A DNA stretch of 64,000 nt, from positions 1 to 64,000 of the IMG/VR virus record IMGVR_UViG_3300026292_000004. One strand, given 5' to 3'. The notes under the pieces are model-generated. The model did no database searches. It was not told the origin of the DNA and saw only the letters and a program-made list of their open reading frames with translations. How positions within the stretch are numbered: the first letter of the stretch is position 1; each line of letters begins with the position of its first letter. This document shows, in pieces, positions 7,100-64,000 of the stretch. The position numbers were made by a program, and so were the translations under genes. Origin of the DNA: a virus.

Positions 7100-7124
7100 T
7101 TTCTCTTTCTCCTGATGTTATTAT

Positions 7125-7132
7125 TATTTAGA
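7125..7132 (-). promoter_or_regulatory. Late-promoter-like octamer TCTAAATA upstream of gp19
   Basis: TCTAAATA on the minus strand, 26 bases before the gp19 start in the gp18-gp19 gap. Confidence 0.45.
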
Positions 7133-40701: not shown

Positions 40702-40709
40702 TATTTATG
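40702..40709 (-). promoter_or_regulatory. Late-promoter-like octamer CATAAATA
   Basis: CATAAATA on the minus strand, 18 bases before the 394-residue gene and overlapping the previous stop codon. Confidence 0.45.
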
Positions 40710-41577: not shown

Positions 41578-41585
41578 TATTTATG
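41578..41585 (-). promoter_or_regulatory. Late-promoter-like octamer CATAAATA at the end of the giant gene
   Basis: CATAAATA on the minus strand, 19 bases before the YHYH gene start and overlapping the giant gene's stop codon. Confidence 0.45.
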
Positions 41586-44500
41586 GGGCGGGTGTACTTG
41601 ACCATATGCTTGTTACAGCGAAGGTTCCAACTGTAGTACCTGTACCCGCTGGAGATGATCCTTGTCCAGGAATGTCTCCACTGTCCACGTTGGCAAGATT
41701 TTCGGGTGTTACATTAATAACATCAGTATCAACAACCTCTTCTTTATAAAGAGCTTCTTCACCGTATGCACTGAGATCTGGAGCAGTCCATTCATCAGCA
41801 ACCACGTTAGTGATAGTAACACCAGGATAATTATAATTTGAACCAGGGGCGGTTGTATCTACACGAGAAACACCAACCAGTGCTTTAACTGCACCATCAA
41901 AACCAGATGCACTGTCAACACGGATAACTGGACGTGCGCTGAATCCAGATCCAGGATTGGTTACCTGAACAGAATCAATTCTATTCTTAACGATAGCAGC
42001 ATTACCTTGAGCATCACGACCAAATACAGATCCGATATACTCAAATGTTACTAGTGTATTAGAAGATTCAATGACAGCAACTTCTCTATCTTCAGTCTCA
42101 CCTTGAATGTCTAAGAGGTCACCTGCCTCAATTGGAGGAACAATCTCAGACTGCGTAACGTCAGCATCAGAACCAATGTATGCGAAACCAACGAATGTTG
42201 ATCCTACACGAGGAGTTTCTTTGAAAACGACACGAGAACCAACAAGTTCAAAACCGATTCCAGGTTGCTGAATAACACCGTTAAGCGAGATAATGATGTT
42301 GTTGTCTGCGATAATAGACTCAGTTGCCTGTACACCTTCAGTAAGTGCGATAGAGTAGAATGTACCGTCACGCTTAAGGTTGAAGGATGATCTCAATGAG
42401 TCAAACTCAAATGATATGTCATCCAACTGACGCATCTTACCTACGTAGAAACCAGTGAAGGAAGAACCAATGGTAGGTGCTTCGTTGAACTGTATGATGT
42501 CAGAGAATGCTGTGTATGAACCAGCCGCGCCTGGAGGTTGTAGAATACCATTCACAAAGACCATCATGTGACCTTCAGGATCTGGGAAGTATGGAGTACC
42601 GTTTTGCTCAGTTAGTTTGAACTGTGTTTGTGTACCATCAAATCCAACGAACCAACGCTTAGTACGTCCTACGACATCTATCTTCTCACTAGATGCTGCT
42701 TTATATCCATCATCAGAAATGATAGTATCATTTCCAGTAAATGTTCCAACAACATCACTTAGATACACACGATTTGTTAATCCAATTTCATCAATTCTAC
42801 TGACTGTACCGTAAGCAGTTGTAGTTGCGTTAACTGTAGTAGATACCTGACCATAAATTATTGGACTTGAAGTTTCACCTAATTGGTATTGACCAATATA
42901 TTGACCATTAGCGAATGCTGAAGATCCTATTGGTGACACGTACAAGTAATTATTTGCATCATCCCATCCAGTAACAATACCATATGCACCACCGTCAATT
43001 ATTGACTGATTATTGTTTGCTTGATAAACATACTGACCAACAGAGAAGTCAAGAGTTGCGTTAGCACCTGTGAGAGTAACACCTAAGCGTGTGTAACCCG
43101 TAGCAACAACCTTATCACCCGTAGCAATATTTGCTGCTATTGAAGGATGCTTAGTAACATCTAAGTAAATTCTAGTAGCATCTGGGTAAACAACTGAATT
43201 CTCTTCAAATGCACCTACGACACTCTCAGTATCAATTGTAAGTTTACCACCAGTATTATCAAGAACTGCACCTTCATTCTTATTGAATGCTACGATATCT
43301 GCCTTAGCACCACTACTATAACCCTTGAATGAGTATCCTGCCTTCATCTCATTAACGAGATTAATAACTTGGAATCTATCAACGATAGTTTGAATACCCG
43401 CGTTAGTTAAAGTACCAACTTCAAATGTGATATTTGGAGCACCACCATTACCTAATAGTGCATCAGGAAGTGTTAATACATCACTAACACCATATCCAGT
43501 ACCACCATTAGCAATTGTAATATTAGCAGCACCTTGATCATCAACAGTTATGTTAAATGTTGCGTTAGAACCATTACCACCTGTAGCAGCGATACCATCG
43601 TAAGAACCTTGAGTTCTATTTACGTTAGCACCTGCATTTGTTAAGTTCGTAATAGATCCAACAAGGTTAGTACCACCTGCGAGAGCAGCACCAGAAGTTT
43701 GACCTGTAATTCCTAGGTATTGTGTGAATGTACCTGCACTGATTACAACGTCCATATAACGGAAGTTATCATCAGAAGAAGTAGCATAAACAACACCTGT
43801 TATAGCAGCGTTACCAGTGATTTGTATGATTTCACCTAAAGCGAAGTCTGCATTACCACCACCTAGAGTAACTTGATCTGCTTTGAAACTAAATCTCTTA
43901 AAGATCTTAGCAATTCTTGCTTCGTTACTTGTAACTTTCTCAATTTCAGCATAACTATCAGATCCAACAGCATAGAAGTGATCAGAACCAACTATTTTTT
44001 GTCCAAGTCCTACAGGAACGTTTCTAGTACCACCAGCCACGTACGTAGTTGTTGGAAGTGTTACACCAACATAACCAGTTTGTTGCTCATAGAAACTATC
44101 ATCTACAAGTTGTGACTTATAAAGTCTGATAGTATTCTTGATACGGAACATTACTTCAGGTGTATCATAGTATATGTTCAATTCTGGTTTGTAAGCAGGT
44201 ATTGTTCCAGAATCAGGAGCAGGATTAATCAAATTATTATTGAGTTGCTCCTCAACAAAGTCCTCAAATTTATCAAGAATATAGTTCTTAATATTAAATT
44301 CATCAGAGATATAGAACTTCTCACCAGCCTCAGACTGATAGATGTCTAGGAATCCCTTATTAAGTTTAGCACCCCAGATAAATGAACCCTTAGTACCATC
44401 ACCCTCAGAACCACCACCAGCTAAAGTACCAGTATTATTGAGCATGTATTCCTTCATAGTGATAGTAGAAATACCGAATGGAACACGAATTGTTATGAAT

Positions 44501-47500
44501 GGTCGGAACCAACCAAATCCATAAGGTTTAACACCCCAGTATGTTCCCTTCATACCATTTGAATCTGAACCATCACCAACAATTACGTTACCGTTAATGA
44601 ATAGTGAAGGACCAATAGCACCTGTTACTGCATCCCATGTAAATTCTGCCTTATCGGTAGCACTCCATGAAATACTATGACGGAACTTATAATACTCATC
44701 TTGCTTAACAAAGCAACTGAATGTATATTCCTGATAGGATAGTGAAGAACCTTCGTCAAACTTGTTGATAGCATCATCAAATTTGATTGTGTCCTTATCA
44801 AAGGTATCATATGTTGGTAGTGTAAATTCTCTTTCAATTACCTTAGCACTAGTATTAGCACCAGGAATATACTTGTCAGCAGTCATAGTGCCGTCTGGTG
44901 CAACACCTATATCATTAGAAATAGTACCACCAGTTACAGTCCAACCACCAGCATCAAAAGTCTCTCTTTGACCACTTGGCCAGATATTATCTGATTGAGT
45001 CTCACCTGAGACTGGTGATTGTATTAGACGTATATTTTTTAATGCTGCGGTATTGTTGAGGGTAGCAGTAGTTACTGGACCTTCAATACATTCTTCATCA
45101 GCACTCGTAAATGTATGAGTGAAATCACCACCAGTTTGTATCGCATTAATAGCAGCACTTTGTCCAGCAACAAATGTATGTGGGTACTGATCAGCAGTAG
45201 CAGCAATACCAACATTAACAATAATAGTACCATCTTGCTTCTTAATACCGTTAGGTGTACATGTTACGTACGTGTGTAAAGAAGTATCAGGTGAAGCACC
45301 AATATTAACAGAAAGCTGATCAGCACTAATGATTGTAGGTTCTAACCACTTTTGACTCCAAGGATCAGTTGATCTTGGATAAGCATGAACACTAATCTCA
45401 TTATCTAACTGACACTTGAATGTGATTGCTCCATCCTCAAATTTAATCAAATCACCAGCAGAAAGACCGTGGTTGTTGATGTCAAGTGTTAATATACCAT
45501 TATTAGGATTATATGAAGCAGTATCAGGATCATCTACATTATCTGTACCTACTGATTTAATGTTAATTGACTTATTATAGAATGGGTCAGTTGTACGTGG
45601 GTATGTTTGGTTACCACCACCTTGAGTACAAGTGAATGTCAAACTATTAGGTGCAAGTCTAATACTAGTACCAGCAAGCAATCTATGACCAGTCATCACT
45701 GCACCAGGTAGACTGGAAGCATATGTATGAGATAATGGTACGCTAATAGCACCCTGACCACCGTTAACGTTAACTGTAATAGTTGTAGAACTAGTTCCTG
45801 TAATAGCGAGTCTGTTCTTGGCAGCATAATCTATACCACCTACAGCACGAGAACCAGTTAATCTAGGATACGCAGATTGAGTTTGATTACTTTGTCCAAC
45901 ATCAACAGTAACAGTTGTTCCAGTTACAGCATCAATTGATAATATTTGTCCAGATGCAGGGTCGGAAGAACGAGGATAAGGGTGCTGTGTAGCATGACTA
46001 TCAGCATCGCAAGTAAAGATGACTGCCTGATCATCAATCTCAAGAGTATCAGAAGTAGTATAACTATGAGATCCAATCTCCAATACTAGAAGTCCAGTAG
46101 CAGGAGTATATGTTGTACCAGCAGCAGCAGTCTTTTGACTTAAAGTTCCACCAACATCAAAGGTTAATCCATTAGTTACACCAGTAACAAATGTATGAGT
46201 ACCTGTTGCAGCAGCACAAGTAAAGGTGAGAGATTCTGGTTTAAGACCAATGGTATCATCAGTAGTCAATCCATGATTAAGACCAACAGTCAACTCCATA
46301 TCACCACTTGTGGCATTGTATGTTGCGTTAGTTACATCAAGTGCCCCAACTGTCAACTCCATATCACCAGTAGTATGGTTATAATCAGCAGCAGTAGGAG
46401 TATAAGTTCCAGCAGTTGTCTTACCAACATCAACCGTAATAGTATTTGTGGTTACAGATTCAACAGCAATATCTTTCTTATAGAATGGATCAGTTGGTCT
46501 TGGATATGAATGGTAACTACTATCATCATCCATTGCACAAGTAAATGTCAATGAATTTGGTTTGATTTGAATTACATCATTCTGTTTCTGGAGACAATCA
46601 CTAAGTGCTGTCTGGAAAGTATGAGCAGTAGTGTTAGAAGATATTCCTACATTAACCACAAAAGTATTTGTAGTTACTCCTGTAATAGTCAACCATCTAC
46701 CACTAGCAGGGTCAGATGATCTTGGATAAGTCTTAGTTACACTATTGTCTTGAGCACACTTGAATGTTAATGAATTATCATCAAGTTTAATCTTATCACC
46801 ATTACTAAATCCATGACCACTTAAAGTGATAGTCATTGCACCTGTAGCAGGTGTAAAGGCAGCACCAGTTGGTGTATGCTTAGTATATGGTGTCATTCCA
46901 TGACCAGCAATGGTCAGTACCAATTTACCTGTTGAAGGAGTATATGATACATTAGTTGGACTATAAAGTGTACCAATTAAATCAGGTGTAGAAAGTAAAT
47001 CATAGATTGCATCATCTTTAACCTGAGTTAAGAATGCAGTTTCTTCTTCCTCTTCCCAAACTCCACCCCAGTCAGCGATGGTAGAAGACCTAATCTCTTC
47101 TTCAAAGTATTCATCACCAACAAGTATTTGTAGTGCTGATTCACGACCTTGCTTACCAGAAGGTACAAGAATCTCAATTATAGTTTCAATTAAAGTATCA
47201 ATAGCAGATTGAACATTAGCACAATCTTGAGCAGTATAATCAGTACTATAACCATCATCCTGAGAATCAGTTATAGTTAAATCTGTAACAGCAGGAATTA
47301 TGTTTTGATCAGTAAATCTACCAACATAATGTTCTGGAGATAATTGACCAGCACCAGTACTCTGAAGTAAGTTATTAACTGCTTTCTTACAAAGGAATCC
47401 TACTCTTTCAATTGCCTCAGCAGTTTGAGCAAGTTGATCTTCAACCTGTACAATATTTTGAGATGTATCAAGGAACTTCTTAGCAGCTTCTACAGAACTG

Positions 47501-50500
47501 TAGTTACCACCAACAAGAAGGTCAGAAGCAATAGAGTCAACAATAAGAGTCATATCTCTGACACACTTATTCTTACCGTCAGTATCGCCACCTGGATAAT
47601 TAAATACTCTGACATCATTACTACCAGCATCCTGATAAGTAAATTTCTCTTGCATTAAACCAACTGCTTCATTACCAATGTAATCCTTGTTAAAGATCAT
47701 CAAATCAGCAGCATCAGCATATCTATCACCAGTTGGTGAAAGAGTACTATTCATTAAAGTAATAAGAGTATCAATAGAGGTTTTAACATTAGCACATCCA
47801 CCACCATCAACAGTAATTCCAGCAGGAGGAATAATAACATTAGTAGAGTAATTAGCAACTAGAGTTCCGTCAATTGCTGCCTTAGCATAGAATGCTAAAC
47901 GCTCATGAGCATATAGTGATTGTAGAAGTTGTAGTCTAATGTGAAGTATCTCACCATTAGAACCAAGATAGAATCTAAAGGCAGTAACAGTATTTGCATT
48001 ACCACCATACTCTAAATCTTCTGCAATAGCATCAAGAATTAAACCAAGGTCAGTCTTACAACGTATTGTACCAAGACCAGAAGCACCACCTTCGTTTCTA
48101 GGCATATCCTGTACAAGATCAGGATAGCGATTAAGCATATCACCAGCAGTCTCGTCAACAATAACAGTTGCATTAGCACGAATTAGATTCGCGGCATCCT
48201 TATATCTGTTAAGTGCATCTGGATTTAATTGATTACTTACAAATAAGTCATCATCTGGGAATTCCTTATCACAAGTAAATTCACTAGTAACATAAGCATC
48301 AACTACACCACCACCAGTTTCACTAGTAGGAGCAGTTCTAGTTACAGTACCAAGATGATCACTTGGTGTTAATGAATCTGCATTAAAGATAGTATCAGAA
48401 ATAATACCAGTGTATGTTGTGATAGCAGTTGCTACATCCTGACAATAAGGATTAGCGGTATCTGTAGTGATTGTATTATCAATTACCTGCTCATAACCAT
48501 GATCACCTGTGATTGATATAGCGTCTCTACGCATCACATTGATCATGAAATCACGAACCTTACCAATTGCCCATACAGTCTCACCCTCTTCACCTGAAAT
48601 ATGATTAATAAGTATATTATTAGTATCTGCACGATTAACATAATATGCAGCAGTATCCCAAGACTTACTGTTACCTTCGTTACGAAGATCATAGCATATT
48701 GCCTTAACCCACTCCTTAGCATCTCTAACACACTTAGAGAATGATGGATGAGTTCTTTGAATAAAGTTAACTGAACTTGGATATTCAATTGTTCTTAAAG
48801 CACCAGGATCAGATAAAGTATCTGTCACGATCTTCATCAAAGCATCAAGACGTGCATTTGCTTCAGGATATCCACCATAAACGAATGGAATATTTGAATT
48901 AGTTTGCTGAATTTCACCGTGAGAAGTAATTGCATTATCTTCAGAACTTACAAATGTATGTGCATAACCACCACCAGTCTTAACAGCACCAGCAGCAGCA
49001 CTCTGGAATACATGAGTATAGTTACCACCAGCAATTACAGCACCAGCAGATGCACCGATGAATGTATGTGCTGTAGGTGAACCTACAGAAGTAATTGGTT
49101 TTACATCAACTGTAATAGTTCCAGTCTGTGTCTCAAGACCATTAGATGAAGCACTTATAAATGTATGTTCAAAATCTCCAATACTAGTTTGACCAACTTG
49201 AACATCAAATGTATTATCAGTTATATTACTGATTGCTGTCCACTTATTACTAATAGGATCATTTCCTCTAGGATAAGTATGAAGTGTCTGATGTAAATCT
49301 TGATTACATGTAAATGTTAATGAGTTATCTAATATTCTAATCTTATCTTGATCAGTAAATCCATGATTAGCAATAGTTAGTCTTAAAATACCAGTAGAAG
49401 CAGTATATGTTGCACCTGTTACTGTGTGCTGGTTCTTACCAATAGCAGTAATAGGAAGTGCTCTCTGCCAAGCATAGTCAGCACCAGATGGTGTACCACC
49501 ACTGTAACTAGAACCTGTGCCACGAGGATATGCAACCTGTACAGGTGAACCACCGTAAGTACACTGGAATGTTAATGAACTATCTGCTAGTTTAATACTC
49601 TGTGCTTCAATTAAGTCATGAGTTCCGATATTAAGTACCAAATCACCAGAGGTGAAGTTATAAGTTGCACCAGCAACATCATATAGAACTTGAGGTGATG
49701 CACCAACATTAACTGTAATTTCACCAGTCTGCTTCTTAAGAGCATTACCTACACAACTGTTAAAGGTATGAACAGAAGTATCTGGTGACTTACCAATTTG
49801 TATGTCAAATGTATGTGTTGTTAGGTTCTCAATTGGGATCCACTGAGATGCAGAAGGATCTTTTGGTCTTGGATATGAATGATATGAAGTATCACCATCT
49901 AACTTACAAGTAAACTTCAGAGCTTCGTTATCAAGTTTAACCTGATCACCAGCAACCTTAATACCATTAGAAGCAGAAGATTGCCATACATGAGTATAGT
50001 TTCCACCAGTTCTAACAACAGAAGTTAGAATACTATTGTTTACAGCATTAACGAATGTATGTGTATAGTTACCACCACTTGTTATAGCATTAGATGAAGT
50101 ACCACCAACCCATGTATGTGTTGATACGTTAGAAGAAATACCAACGTTAACAGTAATAGTTGTACGAGTTACACCATCAACATAGATTGTTCTATCATAG
50201 TATGGGTCTCTCTGAATTGAAATACCATTTGCAGTAGCAGACTCAAATATATGAGTATCTGGGTTTGTAGAAGGTGCAAGATCTAAAACTTGAACTTTAA
50301 ACGTAGTTGAAGTTACATCAAAAATTGGTAACCATCTACCACTAGCATAATCACTTCCACGAGGATATGAGTGGTTAGTAGCATTACCATCCTTAGCACA
50401 CTTGAATGTTAATGAATTATCTGCGATCTTAATCTTCTCACCATACTTGTAACCATGAAGAGGTACAGTCAATGTCAAATGTCCTGTAGCAGGATCATAT

Positions 50501-53500
50501 GATGCAGTATTAACTGTAGAAGTATCAATTGTATTTCTTGGATAAGTATGAGTTGTTACACCATCTGGTTCAGCGAGAGTAGCATCTTGCTGACACTTGA
50601 AGGATAACTTATCCTGTCCAATCTTAATACCTTGTCCTTTCTTAATTCCGTGGTTATGACCAACAGTAAGAACCATCTCACCTGTATTTGGTGAATAAAC
50701 TGCATTAGTTACATCATGGTTAACTAGAGGTGTTGTACCAACAGGAACAGTAATTGTATTAGCATCTACAACAGTAACATCTAACCACTTGTTAGCAACT
50801 GGATCTGTTGAACGAGGATATGCATGAACAGTTTCATGATGATCCATGTCACATGTAAACTGAAGTGCATCCTCAGCAATCTTAATTCTACTTGTACTTT
50901 CAAGTCCATGACCAGTAATAGTCATCTGAAGAGTACCGTTACCAGGATTATATGTTGCAGCAGTAGGTGTTAATCCTACAGCAGGAACAAACTTATGGGC
51001 AAACTGGTTACCACCAGATCCTACATTTACATTAATAGTAATAGTAGTTGGAGTAACTCCCTTAATATTCAATGCTGCATTATAAGCAGGATCAGTTGAT
51101 CTTGGATACTTATGAGTAGTAGCATAACCATCATTAGAACATGTAAATTCTAAAGATTCTTTTGCTAGTTTAATAGCAGTTCCAACCTTAAGATCGTGAT
51201 TACCAATCTCAAGTACTAAATCACCACCAGTATGATCATATTCAGCATGAGCAACATGGAAATCTTTAAGAGGTGACTTACCAACATTAACTTTGAATAC
51301 TGTAGTACTGTCAACATCTACATCTAACCACTTACCGAAAGTAGGATCACTCTTACGTGGATAGGTCTTATTACCAGAACCCATTGCACAACTAAATGTG
51401 AATGCACCTTCTTCAAATCTTACACGAGCACCGTTAGCAAGACTATGAACACCAGTTGTAGTAACTGACAATTCTCCAGTTGCAGGGTCGTATGTTGTTC
51501 CAGAAGCACCTGTTAGATTAGTTGGTCCACTCCAACCATGATTTTGAATATCAAGAGTTAGAACACCTGTTTCAGGATTGTACTTAGTACCAGCAGTACC
51601 AATACCAACATTCATTGTAATGTCGTTTCCAGCCTTAGTGATTGGAATAGTTCTACTCCAAGTAGCATCTGAGGTTCCTGTTCCTAATGTAGTAAAGATT
51701 GGGTCGGTTGCTCTTGGATATGCATGGTTAGTAGCATTTTGATCAAGATCACAAGTCATTGTTAGTGAACTTACCTTCATGTTAATGAAGTCACTAGCAG
51801 CAAGTGAATCTGTACCATCAGCACCAACAGTAAGAACTAGGTTACCAGTTTCAGCAGTATAAACTGCATTAGTTACTGTATAAGTATTGCCTGTAGCACT
51901 AGCATCTCTGATACCGCCACTAAGAGCAGAAACAAATGCATGGTTACCAGCAACTACTGTATGTTGAGTTTGACCAACAGCAGTAATAGGAATATTTGTG
52001 TTATGTACTGGATCAGTTGATCTTGGATAAGTCTTATTAGTATTCTGACTATCCATGTTACACTGGAATGTCAGAGAGTCAGTATCAATCTTAATAGCAT
52101 TACCAACATTCATATTGTGCTTACCAATATTGAGTGTTAGATTACCATCAGCAGGAGTATATGTAGCAGCAGATACATCATGTCCGACTTCAGGAGAAGC
52201 ACCAACATTAAATGTAACGTTACCATCTTGTCCTAAAAGTCCATGTGGAGCATGAGACTTGAATGTATGATTATAAGCACCACCATTGTATACAACTGCT
52301 CTTGATACACAATTGAATACCGCAGAAACAAATGTATGAACTGTATTATTAGAAGTAATTCCAACGTTAATAGCAAATGTATCTGTAGTGACCTTACCAA
52401 TCTTCATCCACTTACCGCTAAATGGATCGGTCTCTCTTGGATAAGAATGCTGTGTCTTATTATCGTCAGTAGCACAAGTGAATACTAAACCAGCATCAGC
52501 AACCTTGATATATTCACCACTTGCAAATGTATGACCAGCAAGAGTTAGAGTCATCCAACCTGTAGCAGGATCATAATCAGCATCAGTTGGAGTATACTGG
52601 TTGTTAGCATTAACAAATTGATGAGTACTTGTATTGGTTGGAGTAGTACCCTGTAATGCATTAACCTTAATAATACCACTCTGATACTGAAGACCATTAG
52701 CAACAGCACTGTCAAATGAATGAACAGTAGTGTTAGAAGAAACTCCTACGTTACACTTAAAGGTATCAGCATCTACTACCGTTACTGTAATCCACTTACC
52801 ACTTATAGGGTCAGTAGATCTTGGATATGCATGAGTACCACCACCAGCAGTACAAGTAAACACGATTGAACTGTCTACTATTTTAATTCTTTGACCAGAA
52901 ACAAATCCATGAGCAGCAGATGTAATTGTTAATAAACCTGTAGTAGGTTCGTAAGTTGCACCAGTTGCTGTCTTAGCATTAGTTCCAATATCAGTAATCT
53001 TAAGGAACTTATTGTATGCAGGATCAGTTGTTCTTGGATATGACTTATTAGTGATGTAGTTATCACTGTTATGGTTACAAACAAAGTTTAGAGAGTTGTT
53101 TGCAATCTTAACATACTCACCAACAGAGAAGTCATGATCTCCAATAGTAAGTTCTAGAACTCCAGATGCAGGTGTATAAGATGCACCAGTAACACCAAAT
53201 CCTTCAATATTTTCACCAGTACCAGTTTCAATACAGTTATTATCAGCACGAACAAATGTATGTCCAGATGTATTAGAAGATACACCAACGTTAACAGTAA
53301 TCTTACTGTCTCTTCTTATAATACCATTTGCAGCAACTGCTGTACAGTTATGATTAGAAGTGTCTGAAGACTTACCTATTTGAACATCAAAACTATCTGT
53401 AGCAACAGCATCAATACGTAACCATTGACCACTAGCAGGGTCAGTTGGACGTGGATATAGATGATTACTACCGTAACTATCAGTATTACACTGGAAGGTT

Positions 53501-56500
53501 AAGGACTCATCAACAATCTTAACGTATTCACCGACAGTGAAATTATGACCTGTTTGTCCAATTGTTAGAACACCTGTAGTAGGTTCGTAGTCAGTATCTG
53601 ACTGAGCAGCAGTATATGGTGTACCTTCATACTTAATAGGAATTGAAGTATCATATACTTTGTCACGTTTCTGTTGAATACCATCAGCAACACCAGAAAC
53701 AAATGTATGAGTGTAGTTACCACCAGTCTGTACAGCACCAGCAGAAGCAGAAACGAATCTATGCTCTGTCTGATCTGTTGAAGGAGCAGATGGAAGAACC
53801 TGCATACTAATAGTCATGTCCTGACCAGTAACACATCCAGCAGTACAAGATACGAAAGTATGCTCTGTTGCGTTAGTAGAAGGTACAGAAGCAAGAATCT
53901 GAACATCAAATGTATCAGGAGTTCTATTGAATACAGTTAACCACTTACCACTTGATTCATCAGTTGCTCTTGGATAAGAATGTACTGTGTCATGATTGTC
54001 ATGATCACATGTAAAGCTAAGAGCATTGTTTGCAATCTTGATCTTATCACCATTCTGTACAGGATGATCCTTAATAGTTAAGGTTACATGACCTGTATTA
54101 GGATTATAATCAGCAAATGTAGGTGTTAAAACAGCATCGCCAACCGCAGTGATAGCAATGGAAGTGTTGTATGTAGCACTATCATTACCATTATTTCTAG
54201 GATAAGTCTTAGTTGTTGCGTGATTATCGTTGTTATAATCACAAGTAAATGTTAATGAATCCTGAGCAAGTTTAATTGCATCACCCGCAACCATTCCATG
54301 AGTACCAATGGTAAGTTCCATGATACCTGTGGTTGGGTTGTATGCAGCATCAGTTGGTGTATAGTTTACAGCAGGTGACTTACCTACATTAACAGTAAAT
54401 CTTGTTGTACTAGGAACACTCTCAACTTGTAACCACTTATCATATGTTGGGTCAGTCTGACGTGGATATGCCTTATTAGAACTACCACCGTCCATTGTGC
54501 AATTAAATGTGATTGCACCTTCATTAAACTTGATCCAATCACCTACTTGCATACCATGTGTAGCAGCAGTAGTAACATCTAAAACACCAGTTAAAGGAGC
54601 ATAAGTTGAACCAGATGCTGCCTGATGAGTATCAATAGCTGTACGAGGATAAGTATGCTCAGTAGCATTACTATCTAAAGCACAAGTCCAAACTAATGAA
54701 TTGGGTTGAATCTTAATTGTCTGACCAGCAGCAAGACTATGAGTACCAATATCAAGTACCATATCTCCTGTAGTAGGATCATAAGTACCAGCAGAAGGAG
54801 TAAATGTGTATGATAAACTCTTACCTACATTAACTTCAAAACTGTCTGGATTTGAATTAGAAATCTTTAACCAACGACCATTCCAAGGATCAGTTGTTCT
54901 TGGATAGTTATGATCAGTATGATGATCATCTTGATCACATGTGAATACTAATGACTTACCAAGAATCTGAACACTATTACCATCTACAAATTTATGTCCA
55001 GGAACCCATAACTGAAGTATTCCAGTCTCAGGATCATAAGTTGCATTATCTATAGTATGAGATGTAATACCAACTTCTTTAATTGCATTCTTACGTAAGT
55101 ATGATTGATCTTCAAGACGAGGATATGTGTGCTCAGACTTATTACCGTCCATTGCACAAGTAAACTTCAATGAGTTAGCAGTAACACATGCACTACCATT
55201 AGAACGAGTAGAGTTAACTATAAAGTTGTGTGATTTACCAATATCTACTGTAAGATCACCAGATACAGGTTCATAAGTTGCATCAGATGCCTTAAATCCA
55301 TTATACTGAAGAACTGGAGAGTTGTTGATTACTCTCTTAGCAATATCTCTTGCTTCATTAAATACACGAATTGAGAAACTTTCTTTACCCTTAAGGTGAT
55401 CAAGTTTAGCATTATTAACATATAATTTAGCAGCATCATAGGTCTTATTGTTAAAACCATATGTTAGGTTATAAGAAATATTACGAATAATATCTTTTAC
55501 GTCATCCTTACAATCTATAGGACCAGTTCCTGGAGGTGGTTCTGGTGAAATACGATCATATGCTTCAGCAGCAATGAAATCTAAGTTACTATTGATAACA
55601 TCGTAGAATTCCTTACCGTAAGTAATAGGTACTTCAGTATCAGGATGAGGAATGTGTAATTTAACAAACTCTTTATCAGTCTGATAAATTGCTTCATTAG
55701 CAATCAATTCAACGTTGTTTAATATCTCAGTTGAAGCATCAAAGAATCTGAAGGTAGTATCTCCAGTTAAGAACTGATCACCTTCGTTCCATGTAGGTAC
55801 TCCAGACCAATCTTGGAAAGTAGTAGATAGGTTAGCACCATCAAAGTGTACTAAGAGGAGAGTATTAATATCTCCTTGATGCATATAAGTTGCATTAGTA
55901 AAGTTAGTAGTGTAACGCTTATTATTAGATACTCTTAATTCATCAACATATCCTTGGAACTGGTTAGCAGCAGCGTGATCTGCACCAACCTTAATTGGTT
56001 TTGTAGTACCATAATCAGTAGCATTAGACCAAGTAGAACCTACCTGAGTTCCATCTAAGAACATTCTATGATTGTTTCCGTCTCTAGAAACTGCTACATG
56101 ATGCCATGTATTTTGAGTTACAGTACCACCAGTAATTACATCAGCACCACTAACATGGTATTCTAATCCAGTACCATCAAGTCTTATGCAAGGTGATGCT
56201 TCTGAAGCTTGAGTTCTAAAGTCAATTAAATGCTGAGTACCAGTAACACTAGCAGCATAGAACCAACACTCAACTGTCCACTCACCATTTCCAAAACCAA
56301 ATTCAGTTGAAGTTGGAACTGAAACATAAGCAGAACCATTCAAATATAGAGATGCACTACCAAATTTCTTCTGTAGAGTTGCATTAATAGCACCACTTTG
56401 AGCAACAGGAACGTGTAAATCTGTACTACGACGTGCTACCTTACCAAGATAAAGGTATTTACGTGCATAGTTAGTACCAATTACTTGAGCAGTACCATTC

Positions 56501-59500: not shown

Positions 59501-62500
59501 TTCTTACCTGGATCAGTAACGATTACCTCAGCAATCTGACCTGGAATGTTGTTACCTTCATCATCCTCACCATCAGCAACAGTAATATTAACCTTACCAC
59601 CTTCTCCATCACCACTAATAGGTACTCCAGTGTATTCTCCTACAGCATATTCAGTACCTGGTTCAGTGATTGCAACTCTTTCAATCTTACGATTGGAGAC
59701 AATTTGTGAAATAACAGGTAACTTCTTGTAGAACCCACCACCATTTACTAGACGGATATCTCCAATTGGTCCAACTGCTTTAGTTGAGAATGTTGTATAT
59801 TTAACTAAACTTGCTTGAGCAGTACCTTCTGGTTCCGAAGTTAATGGGAACTTAAAGATTGTATCACCAGTAGTAATAGTACCACCACTAGTAGAGTATA
59901 TTACGAAATTGCCGTTATATGGTGTAGTTACAACATCCATGTAAGTACCAGCATCAACTGGAGATGTATCACCAGTTTTTGATGGATCAAAGTAATATGA
60001 TATATTTGTTACATCATTATTAATAGAAATCTGAACATAAGGTTCTGGTTGGTTTCCAACCTGATAACCTGGAGTTCCAACACGAGTAATTGAGTTGAAT
60101 GAATATTCTAACTTAAATAGGTTATCCTTAGAGAAGGACATGAAATATCCTTGCAAGGATGTATCACCAAGCATAAACTTATACTTGTGCTGATAATACA
60201 TCTTAAGTACAGGATGCTTGGCATATATGTCAATTGCCGAAGCAGCAACAGGTAAACCAACAGCAACTGCTCGTAAACCAACAATAAATGATCTAGTGCT
60301 TAAAACATTAGTAACATTGAATGATCCATTAAATTCCTCAAGATCATTACCAGAAATTAATAGATTATCTCCAACTTTATGGCGATGTGCTTCAGCAGTA
60401 GTAAAGTAAATCTTATCAGTATTAGCAGCATCATCAAGGATTATAATCTTCTCAAGATTAGTAATTAGAGTAATCTGAGTTACAGCAGTCAATTGATTAG
60501 GTGAAGCACCAATTGTTAACTGAGTTCTATCGGCATTCCAAGAAACAGTATCTGAAGTTGGAGTAATAACACTTCCAACAATATATGGAGATCCAGCAGG
60601 TGCAGTAGCATCAATTCTTACAGTATAATCATTAATACTATATTCCTTAAATCTAGCAGATAATCCACCAGGAATGTCAAATATGAATGTACCTTGTCCA
60701 GCAGTAGCATCATGATCCTGATTAGCAAAGGTTTGTGATGCAATTTCATTAACTTCAGTTCCAGTAGATACAATTTCTCCAGTATCTTCCCAACCTACCC
60801 AATCAGTAGCAGTACCGTAACTTGCAACATATACACCAGTAGAATCACTATCTACAATAGTAGCAGTTCCTATAACCTGCCCACCAGCATTCTTTTGTTG
60901 TAATTGAGATCCAACATTAAAAGTTGCAGGTTGATTGAATGTGAATTTAAGAATATTATCTGCTTGTATAGCATCAACAGTCTGAATATAAAACTTACCC
61001 CAAGTTAGTGGAGTTGCTTTAACCTTTCTACCACCAATAGCAGGTATAGTAGCAGTTCTAGTAGACCATACATCTGTAGTAGATGATATAGTTACAGAGT
61101 CAAGTACAAGAGTTGAGTTTGCATCATTGTAGTCTAGAACCTGTAAACCTTCACCTGCAAGTGTTAATGCTCCTGGATTAATTACCTGATCAGTAACATT
61201 ACTGTAGGTATATGCAGCAGTATTGAATTGCCACGTAGTATTAGTTCCAGTAAAGTCTCCTTGACGACTAGTATCAACATTCTTATCAGTCTTAAGTATT
61301 AAACTGCAATCAACAGCGTAAGTATATTTCTGGAGATAAGTATTAAAATCAGCAGTAGTAGAAGGAACTATAACCTGTATTACACGGTCAGTAATCTTAA
61401 ATCCATCAACATTAAATGATCCAGCAGTGGTAACAGTCAATCCTGAAGAAGCACTCTGCCAATTAGGTGAGTTACCCATGTAAATCTTAGCAGTAGTTGC
61501 AATATTGCTATTTCCTGGAAGAGTTCCTGTACCTACTTGAGTTCCATTAGCATATACAGTATAGACATTACCATTCTTAGTTAATGCAATATGAACATAA
61601 CCAACGTTGTTAATAAGAACATTATCAACACTAGCAATAGCACCAGCAGTTCTTTGAGTAGTAGCAGAAGCATACATCTCAATCCGCTTATTACTACGGT
61701 TTAACATGACCGTAATACCTGGTTCATTACCATGTCCTACACCAAATAGGATATGGTGACTAGATCCAGCAGTACCTAATCTAGTATCTTGCTGATCATT
61801 AGATTCATCAACTGAGAAGAATCCTTCAATTGTCCAATTACCATTAACATCAAATGAATCCTTGAATCCCCAAATACCTGTATTATTGCCTGGTTCTAGT
61901 TCAAAGTGAGTATCTGCCCATGCAGATCCATCCCAAGCATCAATCATCAAACCACCAGTACTACCCTTACCATTAGGAGCACCACTAGTAATATTAGAAC
62001 CTTTATAGTAATCTCCAATAAGATTTCTATTAGTAATGTTACCTGTTGTATCTACAGGTTCAGTTTCACTAGTTTGTTCAAAGTTAAAGAGTCCAATGAC
62101 TTCATTACGGAATGCTTGTCCTACAAAAATTGGGTCACCAGAAGCATCTGAAACAAAATCGTTAATTTCAAATCCAACTATATTTCTAGTAAATTTAACT
62201 ACATTAGTAGAAATTAAAGTACCATCATACTTAATCTTGGTAATTTCACTTTGCTTACGATATGCATCATACTCAGCAGTAGATTCGTTAACCTCATAGT
62301 TACATGCAACGTTATACTGTCCGAATACATCAATATTACCACCAATTGCCTTTAAATTTCTCCAAGTAGTTCCTCCAGTAGGAGTCCAACGCTTACCCCA
62401 AACAACAGTGTCACTAGTAGTTACTTTAGTAACAATTATTGAATTTGAGTTAGATGCAGAGTATGCAGTACCAGAAACATAGAAATCTCCAAATTCGTCA

Positions 62501-64000
62501 ATATCAAACTTAGGATCCCAGAAATTATAACTGGTTGCAGTAAAGTTAGTAACTTTGTCTACAGCAAGTTGGAATTGTTGTGCTTCACAATGTGCAATAG
62601 CAAATGACTTCTGAGGACTAGTATTAGTAGGTGCAACCTCTAAAAGAGCATAGAATTTACCATTATCAGGATTATACTTAATATCTGCTACTTTTTCAGA
62701 AGAATCGGTACTAGCGATCTTTCTCTTTTGTTGAATAAGAAGGTTTTCGTTGAATACAATCAAGAAAGCATCATAAGGGTTAGAAGTGTTAGTATTGGTA
62801 TAACCACCCATACAGAACTTATTTTCACCAACCTTAGTAAGTGCAGTTACTATATCTTGACGAGTAGAACCTGAAATACCAGCAATTTCCTTCTGATACT
62901 GTATTCCTACATTAGCACCACCTGAAGATTGATTGAACTTCATCAAAACAATATCAGGGTTGTAGTTAATATTGAGTGAATTTGGTTTTGTAGTACCACT
63001 TACATATACATCTTGAGTATCACTAGTAATATCAACATATATTGCAGCAAAATCACAATAAGTATCTTGACCACTTGGTTGCTCAGATCTAGCAGTTTTA
63101 GACCAAATTAAGTCTCCAGACTGAGAATACTTAGCAACATAACCTACTCTGTTGTTATATTCATCTAATGTATTACCACAAACGTAATAATCCTTAGTAG
63201 AATTATCAGTGAATATAGAATTGGCAACAGTATTCTTTAAATTATTTGTATTGTTAAGGAAGTATTCTGCCTTCTTAAATGACTGAGGATGTGAAATTAC
63301 TAATTTTGGAGCAGTAGTAAACCCATTACCAGATCTAATAATATTAAATTCTGATACAGTACCATTACCAGTATCAATTATTGGAGTAATAGCAGCATGT
63401 TGTCCTACACCATCAATTTCAACACTAATAGGTACATCATCATTATATCCAGTACCAATCTGAGTAACATTAATTTGTTCAATACCATCAACGGCTTTAA
63501 CCTTATAAGTCTCTAATTCACTTGCTGAATTTGGAGTATAATCAATAAGAACTCTATCAGTAGCAAGAAGATCATGAGGTTCAGCACATTCCACAACACC
63601 ATGAGGAACATCATCAATTAACTCATAACTGTAAGAACTAACAGATTTACCTTCAATTGTTCTAACAACAGCAGATATACCATATCCTTCAGTATCAGTG
63701 TTATCAAAGACCAAACGGTCATTAACCTGATAACTATCACCTGGGTTCTCTACAACAAATGATGAAACAGCAGCATCCTCAAATTTAGTCGTTGTTTCAA
63801 CTTCAATATCAACTTTAGAGTCAAATCTAACTTTAGGGAAGTAGTCAAATAATTCTAACTTGTTTTCTTCAAGTAAAGATCCAACATCTGTAAGTTCTTC
63901 AGCAGTTGTTGTAGTATTAGTGATTTCATAGGTAGCGCGGAAACCGACGTACTCAATGTCAGTAATATTAGCACTTTGTGAAGTTCCGTTATTATCATAA
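41581..64000 (-). CDS. Giant modular virion protein, N-terminus beyond the window
   Basis: At least 7,472 residues. The frame stays open from 63714 to 64000; the apparent start at 63714 is a TTG inside coherent sequence (DSYQVNDRL before, FDNTDTEG after), so the true start is outside. Going N to C: a beta-propeller-like part with repeated VxVSGTT...DIVLMKFN blades (about 63250-62100), a LamG-like fold (62090-61365), beta modules including GSGYxxPP units, and a second LamG-like fold (56400-55830). Then come a helical unit, about 25 F-x-C...YPR repeats (55300-45090) interrupted by a helical insert (48900-46975), and a baseplate-like C-terminus with LNGVIQQPG modules. It is probably baseplate or tail-periphery. 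Its place upstream of gp8 would fit an expanded gp7, but no similarity was shown. Confidence 0.85.
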   Translation of the reverse strand, partial: YDNNGTSQSANITDIEYVGFRATYEITNTTTTAEELTDVGSLLEENKLELFDYFPKVRFDSKVDIEVETTTKFEDAAVSSFVVENPGDSYQVNDRLVFDNTDTEGYGISAVVRTIEGKSVSSYSYELIDDVPHGVVECAEPHDLLATDRVLIDYTPNSASELETYKVKAVDGIEQINVTQIGTGYNDDVPISVEIDGVGQHAAITPIIDTGNGTVSEFNIIRSGNGFTTAPKLVISHPQSFKKAEYFLNNTNNLKNTVANSIFTDNSTKDYYVCGNTLDEYNNRVGYVAKYSQSGDLIWSKTARSEQPSGQDTYCDFAAIYVDITSDTQDVYVSGTTKPNSLNINYNPDIVLMKFNQSSGGANVGIQYQKEIAGISGSTRQDIVTALTKVGENKFCMGGYTNTNTSNPYDAFLIVFNENLLIQQKRKIASTDSSEKVADIKYNPDNGKFYALLEVAPTNTSPQKSFAIAHCEAQQFQLAVDKVTNFTATSYNFWDPKFDIDEFGDFYVSGTAYSASNSNSIIVTKVTTSDTVVWGKRWTPTGGTTWRNLKAIGGNIDVFGQYNVACNYEVNESTAEYDAYRKQSEITKIKYDGTLISTNVVKFTRNIVGFEINDFVSDASGDPIFVGQAFRNEVIGLFNFEQTSETEPVDTTGNITNRNLIGDYYKGSNITSGAPNGKGSTGGLMIDAWDGSAWADTHFELEPGNNTGIWGFKDSFDVNGNWTIEGFFSVDESNDQQDTRLGTAGSSHHILFGVGHGNEPGITVMLNRSNKRIEMYASATTQRTAGAIASVDNVLINNVGYVHIALTKNGNVYTVYANGTQVGTGTLPGNSNIATTAKIYMGNSPNWQSASSGLTVTTAGSFNVDGFKITDRVIQVIVPSTTADFNTYLQKYTYAVDCSLILKTDKNVDTSRQGDFTGTNTTWQFNTAAYTYSNVTDQVINPGALTLAGEGLQVLDYNDANSTLVLDSVTISSTTDVWSTRTATIPAIGGRKVKATPLTWGKFYIQTVDAIQADNILKFTFNQPATFNVGSQLQQKNAGGQVIGTATIVDSDSTGVYVASYGTATDWVGWEDTGEIVSTGTEVNEIASQTFANQDHDATAGQGTFIFDIPGGLSARFKEYSINDYTVRIDATAPAGSPYIVGSVITPTSDTVSWNADRTQLTIGASPNQLTAVTQITLITNLEKIIILDDAANTDKIYFTTAEAHRHKVGDNLLISGNDLEEFNGSFNVTNVLSTRSFIVGLRAVAVGLPVAASAIDIYAKHPVLKMYYQHKYKFMLGDTSLQGYFMSFSKDNLFKLEYSFNSITRVGTPGYQVGNQPEPYVQISINNDVTNISYYFDPSKTGDTSPVDAGTYMDVVTTPYNGNFVIYSTSGGTITTGDTIFKFPLTSEPEGTAQASLVKYTTFSTKAVGPIGDIRLVNGGGFYKKLPVISQIVSNRKIERVAITEPGTEYAVGEYTGVPISGDGEGGKVNITVADGEDDEGNNIPGQIAEVIVTDPGKNYTTATIDIESITGILGAGLTGSGAELTVVIPPNGTGASVFVKADKIGKIKKLKNNNFGFDYTHDYTLRPEITFPVNVQLTSTNILDSITVTDPGSGYATPPAVIIAGGGGSGATAEASIKNGRIDAIEVKDPGAGYSSQPAVTLKSSFNYVVNLDLNLLQFSFPHGIVNGSAVTLTSNDDGSGDDPELPISSFGRLNANTTYYAISGISNSLENDQLRLAITKDNAAIGDYISYTNAGTGRQVVLTDSFGGAATANVVTGRFLAGELIYQGDTLENATATGYVSENDGWQIGPRILKIVDYTGTFSKNQIVTGTISKASGTIDNFSIAKGVLEVGAITTTPGRFVDDVGKPSEIIQKIQDSYFYQDFSYSVKAPVSISDWRDILITNVHPAGFKVFGELGLVEKSTIENKETAFELTKSVNLAESAIVPNLQNFTLVEPVYTEFDNTEVRFRQKNLTSSEQILTSTVQKINDISDQFDGEKISFGLTVQNINQDGNVVTEPVIASANQLLISLNGIVQSPGDAFTVQGSNVVFSSPPQPPANVQYSNATLEFKTLYRANLSTISGIFPLVGGTIRGIITDYEAIVVATGLTTVDFYYKTTAGQPFQVDDPATTLTYEGEAITSSATGFTANVDSIDPITNTNLFQFKEDIENLRGDNAKIERVNLEGDNGQVLTTIPAGLSASGNTFDVASGYALSKVTLTTAGTGYIDNIDGVSTSGGSGTGMTVTVDADGSGVITATKIKERGTGYALGDVITISGGGNQDATVTIVANTGGVYQIDSERFEVATIVGNTVTANRGVDGTAVVGHQTDSNVFGTTIEIGDTVLLSKTAGTYQSTAGLFDIVIGDIIIGQKSNIVAEVIGISAYRDPVTNEPNNQVIISEGSTFQGLVFNRITNINFQNVILDNVSQTQLQLTDVNDKNTEFNSKFPNSEVVSNLILEYNNAAGTFTVDEDIRNHIVNYSNISGDLIDGETVRLYKLAYDEPKVTPDGLILTGDIIRSENGTAQVIGTNYARKYLYLGKVARRSTDLHVPVAQSGAINATLQKKFGSASLYLNGSAYVSVPTSTEFGFGNGEWTVECWFYAASVTGTQHLIDFRTQASEASPCIRLDGTGLEYHVSGADVITGGTVTQNTWHHVAVSRDGNNHRMFLDGTQVGSTWSNATDYGTTKPIKVGADHAAANQFQGYVDELRVSNNKRYTTNFTNATYMHQGDINTLLLVHFDGANLSTTFQDWSGVPTWNEGDQFLTGDTTFRFFDASTEILNNVELIANEAIYQTDKEFVKLHIPHPDTEVPITYGKEFYDVINSNLDFIAAEAYDRISPEPPPGTGPIDCKDDVKDIIRNISYNLTYGFNNKTYDAAKLYVNNAKLDHLKGKESFSIRVFNEARDIAKRVINNSPVLQYNGFKASDATYEPVSGDLTVDIGKSHNFIVNSTRSNGSACVTANSLKFTCAMDGNKSEHTYPRLEDQSYLRKNAIKEVGITSHTIDNATYDPETGILQLWVPGHKFVDGNSVQILGKSLVFTCDQDDHHTDHNYPRTTDPWNGRWLKISNSNPDSFEVNVGKSLSYTFTPSAGTYDPTTGDMVLDIGTHSLAAGQTIKIQPNSLVWTCALDSNATEHTYPRTAIDTHQAASGSTYAPLTGVLDVTTAATHGMQVGDWIKFNEGAITFNCTMDGGSSNKAYPRQTDPTYDKWLQVESVPSTTRFTVNVGKSPAVNYTPTDAAYNPTTGIMELTIGTHGMVAGDAIKLAQDSLTFTCDYNNDNHATTKTYPRNNGNDSATYNTSIAITAVGDAVLTPTFADYNPNTGHVTLTIKDHPVQNGDKIKIANNALSFTCDHDNHDTVHSYPRATDESSGKWLTVFNRTPDTFDVQILASVPSTNATEHTFVSCTAGCVTGQDMTISMQVLPSAPSTDQTEHRFVSASAGAVQTGGNYTHTFVSGVADGIQQKRDKVYDTSIPIKYEGTPYTAAQSDTDYEPTTGVLTIGQTGHNFTVGEYVKIVDESLTFQCNTDSYGSNHLYPRPTDPASGQWLRIDAVATDSFDVQIGKSSDTSNHNCTAVAANGIIRRDSKITVNVGVSSNTSGHTFVRADNNCIETGTGENIEGFGVTGASYTPASGVLELTIGDHDFSVGEYVKIANNSLNFVCNHNSDNYITNKSYPRTTDPAYNKFLKITDIGTNAKTATGATYEPTTGLLTITSAAHGFVSGQRIKIVDSSIVFTCTAGGGTHAYPRSTDPISGKWITVTVVDADTFKCNVGVSSNTTVHSFDSAVANGLQYQSGIIKVNALQGTTPTNTSTHQFVNANNQYTPTDADYDPATGWMTLTLAGHTFASGEYIKVADAGLVFTCATDDNKTQHSYPRETDPFSGKWMKIGKVTTDTFAINVGITSNNTVHTFVSAVFNCVSRAVVYNGGAYNHTFKSHAPHGLLGQDGNVTFNVGASPEVGHDVSAATYTPADGNLTLNIGKHNMNVGNAIKIDTDSLTFQCNMDSQNTNKTYPRSTDPVHNTNIPITAVGQTQHTVVAGNHAFVSALSGGIRDASATGNTYTVTNAVYTAETGNLVLTVGADGTDSLAASDFINMKVSSLTMTCDLDQNATNHAYPRATDPIFTTLGTGTSDATWSRTIPITKAGNDITMNVGIGTAGTKYNPETGVLTLDIQNHGWSGPTNLTGASGTTYDPATGELSVTTTGVHSLANGARVRFEEGAFTFSCAMGSGNKTYPRKSDPTFGKWLDVDVDSTTVFKVNVGKSPLKDFHVAHAEYDHTGGDLVLEIGNHDLKVGTAIKLAKESLEFTCSNDGYATTHKYPRSTDPAYNAALNIKGVTPTTITINVNVGSGGNQFAHKFVPAVGLTPTAATYNPGNGTLQMTITGHGLESTSRIKIAEDALQFTCDMDHHETVHAYPRSTDPVANKWLDVTVVDANTITVPVGTTPLVNHDVTNAVYSPNTGEMVLTVGHNHGIKKGQGIKIGQDKLSFKCQQDATLAEPDGVTTHTYPRNTIDTSTVNTASYDPATGHLTLTVPLHGYKYGEKIKIADNSLTFKCAKDGNATNHSYPRGSDYASGRWLPIFDVTSTTFKVQVLDLAPSTNPDTHIFESATANGISIQRDPYYDRTIYVDGVTRTTITVNVGISSNVSTHTWVGGTSSNAITSGGNYTHTFVNAVNNSILTSVVRTGGNYTHVWQSSASNGIKVAGDQVKLDNEALKFTCKLDGDTSYHSYPRPKDPSASQWIPIENLTTHTFDIQIGKSPDTSVHTFNSCVGNALKKQTGEITVNVGASPQVLYDVAGATYNFTSGDLVLNIGTHDLIEAQSIKLADSSLTFQCTYGGSPVQVAYPRGTGSSYSGGTPSGADYAWQRALPITAIGKNQHTVTGATYTASTGILRLTIANHGFTDQDKIRILDNSLTFTCNQDLHQTLHTYPRGNDPISNKWTAISNITDNTFDVQVGQTSIGDFEHTFISASSNGLETQTGTITVDVKPITSVGSPTAHTFIGASAGAVIAGGNYTHVFQSAAAGAVKTGGGYAHTFVSSEDNAITSHGEIQQTNSNIPFVYGGYPEANARLDALMKIVTDTLSDPGALRTIEYPSSVNFIQRTHPSFSKCVRDAKEWVKAICYDLRNEGNSKSWDTAAYYVNRADTNNILINHISGEEGETVWAIGKVRDFMINVMRRDAISITGDHGYEQVIDNTITTDTANPYCQDVATAITTYTGIISDTIFNADSLTPSDHLGTVTRTAPTSETGGGVVDAYVTSEFTCDKEFPDDDLFVSNQLNPDALNRYKDAANLIRANATVIVDETAGDMLNRYPDLVQDMPRNEGGASGLGTIRCKTDLGLILDAIAEDLEYGGNANTVTAFRFYLGSNGEILHIRLQLLQSLYAHERLAFYAKAAIDGTLVANYSTNVIIPPAGITVDGGGCANVKTSIDTLITLMNSTLSPTGDRYADAADLMIFNKDYIGNEAVGLMQEKFTYQDAGSNDVRVFNYPGGDTDGKNKCVRDMTLIVDSIASDLLVGGNYSSVEAAKKFLDTSQNIVQVEDQLAQTAEAIERVGFLCKKAVNNLLQSTGAGQLSPEHYVGRFTDQNIIPAVTDLTITDSQDDGYSTDYTAQDCANVQSAIDTLIETIIEILVPSGKQGRESALQILVGDEYFEEEIRSSTIADWGGVWEEEEETAFLTQVKDDAIYDLLSTPDLIGTLYSPTNVSYTPSTGKLVLTIAGHGMTPYTKHTPTGAAFTPATGAMTITLSGHGFSNGDKIKLDDNSLTFKCAQDNSVTKTYPRSSDPASGRWLTITGVTTNTFVVNVGISSNTTAHTFQTALSDCLQKQNDVIQIKPNSLTFTCAMDDDSSYHSYPRPTDPFYKKDIAVESVTTNTITVDVGKTTAGTYTPTAADYNHTTGDMELTVGALDVTNATYNATSGDMELTVGLNHGLTTDDTIGLKPESLTFTCAAATGTHTFVTGVTNGLTFDVGGTLSQKTAAAGTTYTPATGLLVLEIGSHSYTTSDTLEIDDQAVIFTCDADSHATQHPYPRSSDPASGQILSIDAVTGTTVTVDVGQSNQTQSAYPRLTGSRAVGGIDYAAKNRLAITGTSSTTITVNVNGGQGAISVPLSHTYASSLPGAVMTGHRLLAGTSIRLAPNSLTFTCTQGGGNQTYPRTTDPFYNKSINIKSVGTDNVDDPDTASYNPNNGILTLDINNHGLSAGDLIKFEDGAITFKCQLDNEISVHAYPRSTDPWSQKWLEPTIISADQLSVNIGASPDTSLHTYVTCTPNGIKKQDGTIIVNVGIAATADQYPHTFVAGQSAAINAIQTGGDFTHTFTSADEECIEGPVTTATLNNTAALKNIRLIQSPVSGETQSDNIWPSGQRETFDAGGWTVTGGTISNDIGVAPDGTMTADKYIPGANTSAKVIEREFTLPTYDTFDKDTIKFDDAINKFDEGSSLSYQEYTFSCFVKQDEYYKFRHSISWSATDKAEFTWDAVTGAIGPSLFINGNVIVGDGSDSNGMKGTYWGVKPYGFGWFRPFITIRVPFGISTITMKEYMLNNTGTLAGGGSEGDGTKGSFIWGAKLNKGFLDIYQSEAGEKFYISDEFNIKNYILDKFEDFVEEQLNNNLINPAPDSGTIPAYKPELNIYYDTPEVMFRIKNTIRLYKSQLVDDSFYEQQTGYVGVTLPTTTYVAGGTRNVPVGLGQKIVGSDHFYAVGSDSYAEIEKVTSNEARIAKIFKRFSFKADQVTLGGGNADFALGEIIQITGNAAITGVVYATSSDDNFRYMDVVISAGTFTQYLGITGQTSGAALAGGTNLVGSITNLTNAGANVNRTQGSYDGIAATGGNGSNATFNITVDDQGAANITIANGGTGYGVSDVLTLPDALLGNGGAPNITFEVGTLTNAGIQTIVDRFQVINLVNEMKAGYSFKGYSSGAKADIVAFNKNEGAVLDNTGGKLTIDTESVVGAFEENSVVYPDATRIYLDVTKHPSIAANIATGDKVVATGYTRLGVTLTGANATLDFSVGQYVYQANNNQSIIDGGAYGIVTGWDDANNYLYVSPIGSSAFANGQYIGQYQLGETSSPIIYGQVSTTVNATTTAYGTVSRIDEIGLTNRVYLSDVVGTFTGNDTIISDDGYKAASSEKIDVVGRTKRWFVGFDGTQTQFKLTEQNGTPYFPDPEGHMMVFVNGILQPPGAAGSYTAFSDIIQFNEAPTIGSSFTGFYVGKMRQLDDISFEFDSLRSSFNLKRDGTFYSIALTEGVQATESIIADNNIIISLNGVIQQPGIGFELVGSRVVFKETPRVGSTFVGFAYIGSDADVTQSEIVPPIEAGDLLDIQGETEDREVAVIESSNTLVTFEYIGSVFGRDAQGNAAIVKNRIDSVQVTNPGSGFSARPVIRVDSASGFDGAVKALVGVSRVDTTAPGSNYNYPGVTITNVVADEWTAPDLSAYGEEALYKEEVVDTDVINVTPENLANVDSGDIPGQGSSPAGTGTTVGTFAVTSIWSSTPAP
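45090..55300 (-). repeat. About 25-copy YPR repeat array in the giant protein
   Basis: Units of roughly 80-130 residues share YxPxTGxLxLTIxxHxLxxGxxIKIxxxSLTFTC, then a charged Asn/His/Asp loop, then HxYPRxTDPxxxKWLxI, then a VNVGxSSNTxxHTFVSA strand. I count 25 units with F-x-C followed by YPR, plus at least two degenerate ones. Each unit has one Cys. The array is split by a helical insert at 46975-48900. Confidence 0.9.
46975..48900 (-). other. Helical insert with C-x2-D units inside the giant protein
   Basis: About 640 residues, largely helical, unlike the beta repeats on both sides. Three units share C-x2-D-x2-x-I-x-D-x-I-x-x-D-L followed by Gly/Asn and an Ala-x-x-Tyr/Phe helix (for example CVRDMTLIVDSIASDL, CKTDLGLILDAIAEDL, CVRDAKEWVKAICYDL). 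A fourth unit lies at 55310-55600. Confidence 0.75.
55310..55600 (-). other. Single helical C-x2-D unit flanking the repeat array
   Basis: The sequence CKDDVKDIIRNISYNLTYGF and following helices match the units of the insert at 46975-48900. It sits directly N-terminal to the first YPR repeat. Confidence 0.7.
55830..56400 (-). other. LamG-like (concanavalin-type) fold in the giant protein
   Basis: The stretch SASLYLNGSAYVSVP, WTVECWFYAAS, TWHHVAVSRDG, MFLDGTQVG and GYVDELRVSN shows the ordered strands of a LamG/Laminin-G-3 domain, a common sugar-binding fold. Confidence 0.85.
61365..62090 (-). other. Second, more N-terminal LamG-like fold in the giant protein
   Basis: Sequence NWTIEGFFSVDES, HHILFGVGHGNEPG, YVHIALTKNGNVYTVYANG and FNVDGFKITDRV follows the same strand order as the other LamG-like fold. 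Confidence 0.75.
62100..63250 (-). other. Beta-propeller-like blades in the giant protein
   Basis: Repeated segments such as VYVSGTTKPNS...DIVLMKFN, FCMGGYTNTNTS...DAFLIVFN, FYVSGTAYSAS...IIVTKV and PIFVGQAF resemble SBBP/propeller repeats (strand, Gly turn, D-[AI]-x-[LV]-x-K-[FV]). At least four to five blades are visible. Confidence 0.65.

Follow-up and report, generated by a model that had tools for sequence, protein, structure and literature searches.

The window analyzed here is a stretch of 64,000 nucleotides that makes up bases 1 to 64000 of the 90,508-b virus record IMGVR_UViG_3300026292_000004. It contains most of a single giant gene, which continues past the window edge and is flanked by genes for predicted baseplate components:

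41581..64000, minus strand: window part of the giant gene, predicted to be of the gp7 family; the rest lies past the window edge
40705..41559, minus strand: downstream gene for a 284-aa YHYH protein (PF14240)
39500..40684, minus strand: downstream gene for a 394-aa protein with a T4 gp9/10-like N terminus (PF07880, phrog_677)
36059..39496, minus strand: downstream gene for a 1,145-aa YHYH baseplate wedge protein (phrog_708, PF14240)
34494..36026, minus strand: gp8 homolog (PF09215, phrog_438)

Upstream, in the same direction, lie genes for gp25 (PF04965) and gp6 (PF21379, PF21871). The resulting order, gp25-gp6-X-...-gp8, places the giant gene directly after gp6 and before gp8 and, since the order in T4 is gp6-gp7-gp8-gp9-gp10, where T4 has gene 7. 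A preliminary description of the window, made from the sequence alone, had already assigned it to the gp7 position near gp6 and gp8, and the same order is seen in an independent contig (see below).

That description had reported one giant open frame that is incomplete in the window, had doubted that the TTG at 63714 is its true start, and had called for an extension past base 64000; the parent record bears it out on both points. The minus-strand frame is without a stop from 41581 to 63999 and goes on past base 64000, again with no stop, until an ATG is reached at 69312 in the record; the stop codon of gp6 lies 20 b upstream of this ATG. The whole gene spans record positions 69312..41581 (27,732 b or 27.7 kb) and codes for a protein of 9,243 aa, 990 kDa (about 1 MDa), and pI 4.7. 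The longest open runs that the five remaining frames contain here are 44 to 113 codons, and with this base composition a stretch of 9,243 codons would be free of stops by chance with a probability of about 1e-282. The giant gene is genuine and complete in the parent record, as one gene in one frame. The 22,419 b of its frame in the window, together with the 7,359 and 7,455 b of the genes for proteins of 2,452 and 2,484 aa, account for 58% of the 64,000 b, as first described. The 2,452-aa protein (window 19103-26461) has a fiber-type N terminus and, near the C terminus, short repeats of glycine-rich and "IHGNSATI" types in long arrays; it is possibly related to the YadA-type fiber that was fastest evolving in S-TIM4 host-shift experiments (PMC6224464).

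Short-read assembly can go wrong in repeat-rich genes, and the initial concern was that several genes had been fused; a repeat array might likewise have been inflated. Such an artifact is extremely improbable, given an independent contig from another metagenome, IMGVR_UViG_3300020470_001313 (150,607 b), which at 94988-122716 codes for an ortholog of 9,242 aa. The two agree in length to within one residue and are 94.5% identical with two indel sites, and the neighbors occur in the same order (gp25, gp6, YHYH, gp9/10-like, second YHYH, gp8, and the 2,484-aa protein). Further, the repeat copies within the protein are only 38 to 56% alike, so that reads can tell them apart, and a 78.6% identical relative (G004) has all 21 repeats of the first block in the same order, each with 60 to 93% identity. 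We accordingly rejected assembly fusion on the grounds of the independent contig, the syntenic neighbors, and the divergence of the repeats. Selection along the frame also argues against it: differences between the two orthologs (9,243 and 9,242 aa) number 424/249/1063 by codon position, and dN/dS is 0.177 for the whole gene, ranges from 0.107 to 0.242 across the 750-codon windows, and falls to 0.046 in the gp7-like core. The giant gene is under purifying selection throughout. None of the about 60 environmental relatives scanned has an internal stop within the match.

The preliminary description had also noted a modular character, and domain analysis identified the modules, namely, a YHYH domain, two LamG domains, and about 28 copies of an 88-aa domain. 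From the N terminus onward, the protein is laid out as follows, all on the minus strand:

residues 1-120, past the window edge: conserved N terminus
residues 600-1010, record 66283-67515, past the window edge: gp7-homologous core with the motif FY.xKGT..S..LFK.L.GE
residues ~1410-1588, record 64549-65085, past the window edge: YHYH domain (PF14240, E = 1.6e-25)
61456..61854, residues ~2487-2619: LamG/concanavalin-like domain 1 (PF13385, E = 2.5e-8)
55921..56340, residues ~4325-4464: LamG/concanavalin-like domain 2 (PF13385, total E = 1.8e-27, best stretch here)
49159..55287, residues 4676-6718: repeat block 1, with the ~88-aa "YPR" beta domain present ~21 times
47053..48924, residues 6797-7420: conserved nonrepeat segment between the blocks, ~65% identical to ACG-2014d (phrog_701/18802)
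45268..46959, residues 7452-8015: repeat block 2, with the ~88-aa domain present ~7 times
41581..45042, residues 8091-9243: conserved C-terminal part, about 60% identical to S-SSM4 (phrog_18802/701)

PHROG_701 ("virion structural protein") matches the protein end to end, at both the N and the C terminus, and PHROG_2885 ("baseplate wedge subunit") matches the core. The size and the repeats had raised the candidate of a bacterial giant RTX-type adhesin, which we rejected: no RTX calcium-binding or Ig-like Pfam repeats were found in the giant protein, and the locus is a phage tail gene cluster. No plasmid records matched the N terminus.

Proteins encoded between gp6 and gp8 form a size continuum across related phages, from 874 aa in the Pelagibacter phage Mosig through 1,454 aa in S-CRM01 (annotated as gp7-like), 3,048 in S-PM2, 3,274 in Syn1, 4,024 in S-B05, 4,458 in MED4-213, 5,195 in P-SSM2, 6,180 in S-SM1, 6,198 in S-RIM14, 6,483 in Syn19, 6,737 in S-WAM1, 6,817 in ACG-2014d, 6,932 in S-SSM4, and 7,312 in P-SSM4 to 7,351 aa in P-TIM40, with frames of up to 8,458 and 9,131 aa in environmental contigs. 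The locus between gp6 and gp9/gp8 is shared with S-SSM4 (YP_007677248), ACG-2014d (YP_009133414), P-SSM4 (YP_214641), and S-SM1 (SSM1_102), and the P-SSM4 homolog is already called gp7 in GenBank. The 9,243-aa protein is the largest member seen here and stands at the end of the continuum in a known Kyanoviridae family. Its size was originally judged extreme for a T4-like phage, and so it is beside T4 gp7 (1,032 aa), but not beside marine cyanophages; among the Kyanoviridae, 3,000 to 7,400 aa is common, and T4 gp7 is a poor yardstick for a position at which the homologs reach 8,000 to 9,100 aa in environmental relatives. Our search of the literature on a named "longest phage protein" yielded nothing usable, and we claim no world record. 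One member of the family is known from virions: the S-SM1 ortholog SSM1_102 (cluster T4-GC969, a label that the Syn19 gene also carries) was detected in purified virions by mass spectrometry (PMC3037559). S-CREM2 ORF122 is much shorter (1,937 aa); it is the published annotation that places it between wedge genes of the gp6 and gp8 types, and 91 unique peptides of the protein so annotated were obtained from virions (PMC10665884).

The comparison of the N-terminal part with gp7 that had been proposed at the outset gave a positive result for the core. A profile of residues 600 to 1010 built from twelve family members, searched against all PDB sequences, retrieved T4 gp7 (5hx2/5iv5; E = 8e-5) and a second gp7 (9f4a; E = 4e-4), and no other chain. 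The match to 5hx2_A persisted with a profile lacking any close relative (E = 3.7e-5) and was weak with one restricted to the giant subgroup (E = 0.005). It falls on residues 730 to 758 of T4 gp7, a site at which hhalign gave a probability of 82 over 63 columns, and in the reverse search T4 gp7 matched PHROG_2885 and PHROG_17744 at the motif site. These profile matches show that the core is homologous to T4 gp7, a relationship that is genuine but local, resting on a segment of about 30 to 60 residues. The giant protein thus resembles T4 gp7 (5HX2/5IV5) in following gp6 and in this short core segment but is nine times longer; the other parts of T4 gp7 are unrecognizable in it by sequence, and outside the core it consists of lectin-like and repeat domains, unlike T4 gp7. 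An unrelated structural protein that has come to occupy the gp7 position would account for the lack of overall sequence similarity to T4 gp7 and for the failure of a single-sequence PDB search with the N-terminal 1,104 aa to retrieve a relative. We regard this as improbable, as a T4-type gp7 was the top PDB chain for all three profiles, and both the hhalign site and the gene order agree. The corresponding single-sequence PDB search with S-CRM01 gave only unrelated low-scoring matches, and an AlphaFold2 model of the core from 21 sequences, with relatives 52 to 98% identical, was poor (mean pLDDT, 46.7).

The S-CRM01 protein (1,454 aa; "baseplate wedge initiator, gp7-like") has the same N-terminal segment and gp7 core as the giant protein, but it is much shorter and lacks the 88-aa repeats. 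In short relatives, the N-terminal ~120 residues directly precede the core, whereas here a repeat insertion of ~500 aa separates the two. In Anabaena phage A-1(L), the minor wedge subunit uses its N-terminal 107 residues to build a helical bundle together with two major subunits (PMC10966104), and by analogy residues 1 to 120 of the giant protein may have the same role.

The ~88-aa domain, with the consensus Y.P.TG.L.L.I..HG...G..IKI...SLTFTC.......H.YPR..DP...KWL.I..V...TF.VNVG, is present 28 times at E < 1e-6, the copies falling into two blocks. There are four copies in S-SSM4, 14 hits in P-SSM4, and 16 hits in a separate gene of S-SSM7, and none was found in S-WAM1, S-RIM14, Syn1, S-CRM01, or Mosig; compared with the 2 to 14 copies of Kyanoviridae gp7/PHROG_701 relatives, the giant protein has about 28 in a total of 9,243 aa. 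It shares with S-SSM4 the N-terminal ~4,650 residues (68% identical), the C-terminal ~1,500 (60%), and the repeat domain, and is collinear with it over residues 1-4891 (68% identity), about 6938-7420 (63%), and 7734-9234 (60%). About 24 extra 88-aa units explain most of the surplus of ~2,300 residues over S-SSM4. The array itself is old and stable rather than a recent product of slippage, since each block 1 copy has one counterpart, in order, in the above-noted 79% identical relative, with 60 to 93% identity, against 38 to 56% between copies within the protein. In S-SSM7 (NC_015287.1), the 3,007-aa gene at the gp7 position lacks the 88-aa repeats, and the separate gene with the 16 hits (3,001 aa) stands two genes downstream (57561-66584 and 67650-76655).

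AlphaFold2 predicted two repeat units to be all-beta domains (mean pLDDT, 88), and the best structural matches of the model were other structural proteins of cyanophages, among them an S-SCSM1 long tail fiber protein, an S-WAM2 tail protein, and an S-PRM1 "endosialidase." By sequence, the domain is also found in annotated short and long tail fiber proteins of cyanophages. A fold search of the model in PDB gave no significant match (best E = 0.01, to the phi92 endosialidase, with a TM score of 0.29); hence, we claim no fold family.

On the basis of these observations, the giant protein is likely to be a gp7-family wedge protein of a Kyanoviridae-like marine cyanophage, in which the gp7 core is fused to a long arm directed towards the cell surface. 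The N-terminal ~1,000 residues, comprising the conserved segment and the core, would probably sit in the wedge with two copies of gp6, and the remaining ~8,000 would form a tail fiber-like arm radiating from it, made up of GGGSGA-type repeats, the YHYH domain, the two lectin-like LamG domains, the ~28 88-aa domains, and the conserved C terminus. This arm might extend towards or contact the cell surface during adsorption, suggesting a role in adhesion. Six copies would be expected per virion, a number taken from the stoichiometry of T4. The recurrence of the repeat domain in proteins annotated as "long tail fiber," "short tail fiber," and "tail" counts in favor of a fiber-like arm. In chemostats in which host and phage coevolved, S-PM2d081, the 3,048-aa positional homolog from S-PM2 (same cluster, T4-GC826, as Syn1_094), acquired nonsynonymous changes both early and late (PMC9910659), which lends some indirect weight to a function at the interface with the host.

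We tentatively take the model one step further: each of the six wedges might carry one uncleaved chain of ~1 MDa that comprises both the gp7 core and a complete long fiber, with its reach set by the number of 88-aa domains and its longest version found here. If so, the fiber would be covalently part of the baseplate in these cyanophages, and six copies (~5.9 MDa) would rival the mass of the whole T4 baseplate. The modules are separable in evolution, as seen in S-SSM7, where gp7 (3,007 aa) and the repeats belong to separate genes, and in the small relatives from Mosig (874 aa) and S-CRM01 (1,454 aa), which lack the repeats; a polyprotein cleaved into a wedge protein (the N-terminal ~1,300 aa) and at least one fiber protein could be conceived from this. 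Such processing seems unlikely, as no protease or cleavage signal was found in this analysis, the single frame is kept in every relative scanned, and the Kyanoviridae annotations have one gene. A variant of the wedge-and-arm model, rather than an exclusive alternative to it, is that the repeats are a structural spacer setting the reach of a fiber network, with binding left to LamG, YHYH, or other proteins. A spacer would fit the all-beta character and the divergence of the repeats, the stability of their number in close relatives, and its apparent tunability, as distant family members have 0 to 16 copies; the presence of the same domain in annotated tail fibers and its weak resemblance to parts of phage endosialidase tailspikes speak for a more direct part in binding. 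The spacer version is thus a reasonable contender, though we would not favor it outright.

T4-like marine cyanophages widely carry a giant protein in the gp7 position, and about one-tenth of the genome is spent on it. The family is already known; the interest of this member lies in its size, the largest seen here, and in how the family grows, with the extra size coming from the number of copies of a single small beta domain that tail fiber proteins also have. Through the profile matches, the family is now linked to T4 gp7 at the sequence level, and what the extension does in host attachment can be tested in the graded series, from 0 to ~28 repeats and from 874 to 9,243 aa.

Elsewhere in the record, small ORFs at window positions 12783-13073 and 13356-13736, within the tail/packaging region, resemble ferredoxin and plastocyanin, as judged from their sequences; these are photosynthesis genes, typical of cyanophages. 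At the left edge, the ORF at window positions 2-1576 is carbamoyltransferase-like from about [12 protein letters not shown] onward, and the start assigned to it mechanically falls within the major capsid gene, in a different frame. A GIY-YIG-like endonuclease ORF at record positions 77799-78770 (plus strand), opposite to its neighbors, is likely a mobile homing gene, and record positions 89166-89864 hold a SAICAR synthase-like purC, a purine gene common in cyanophages.
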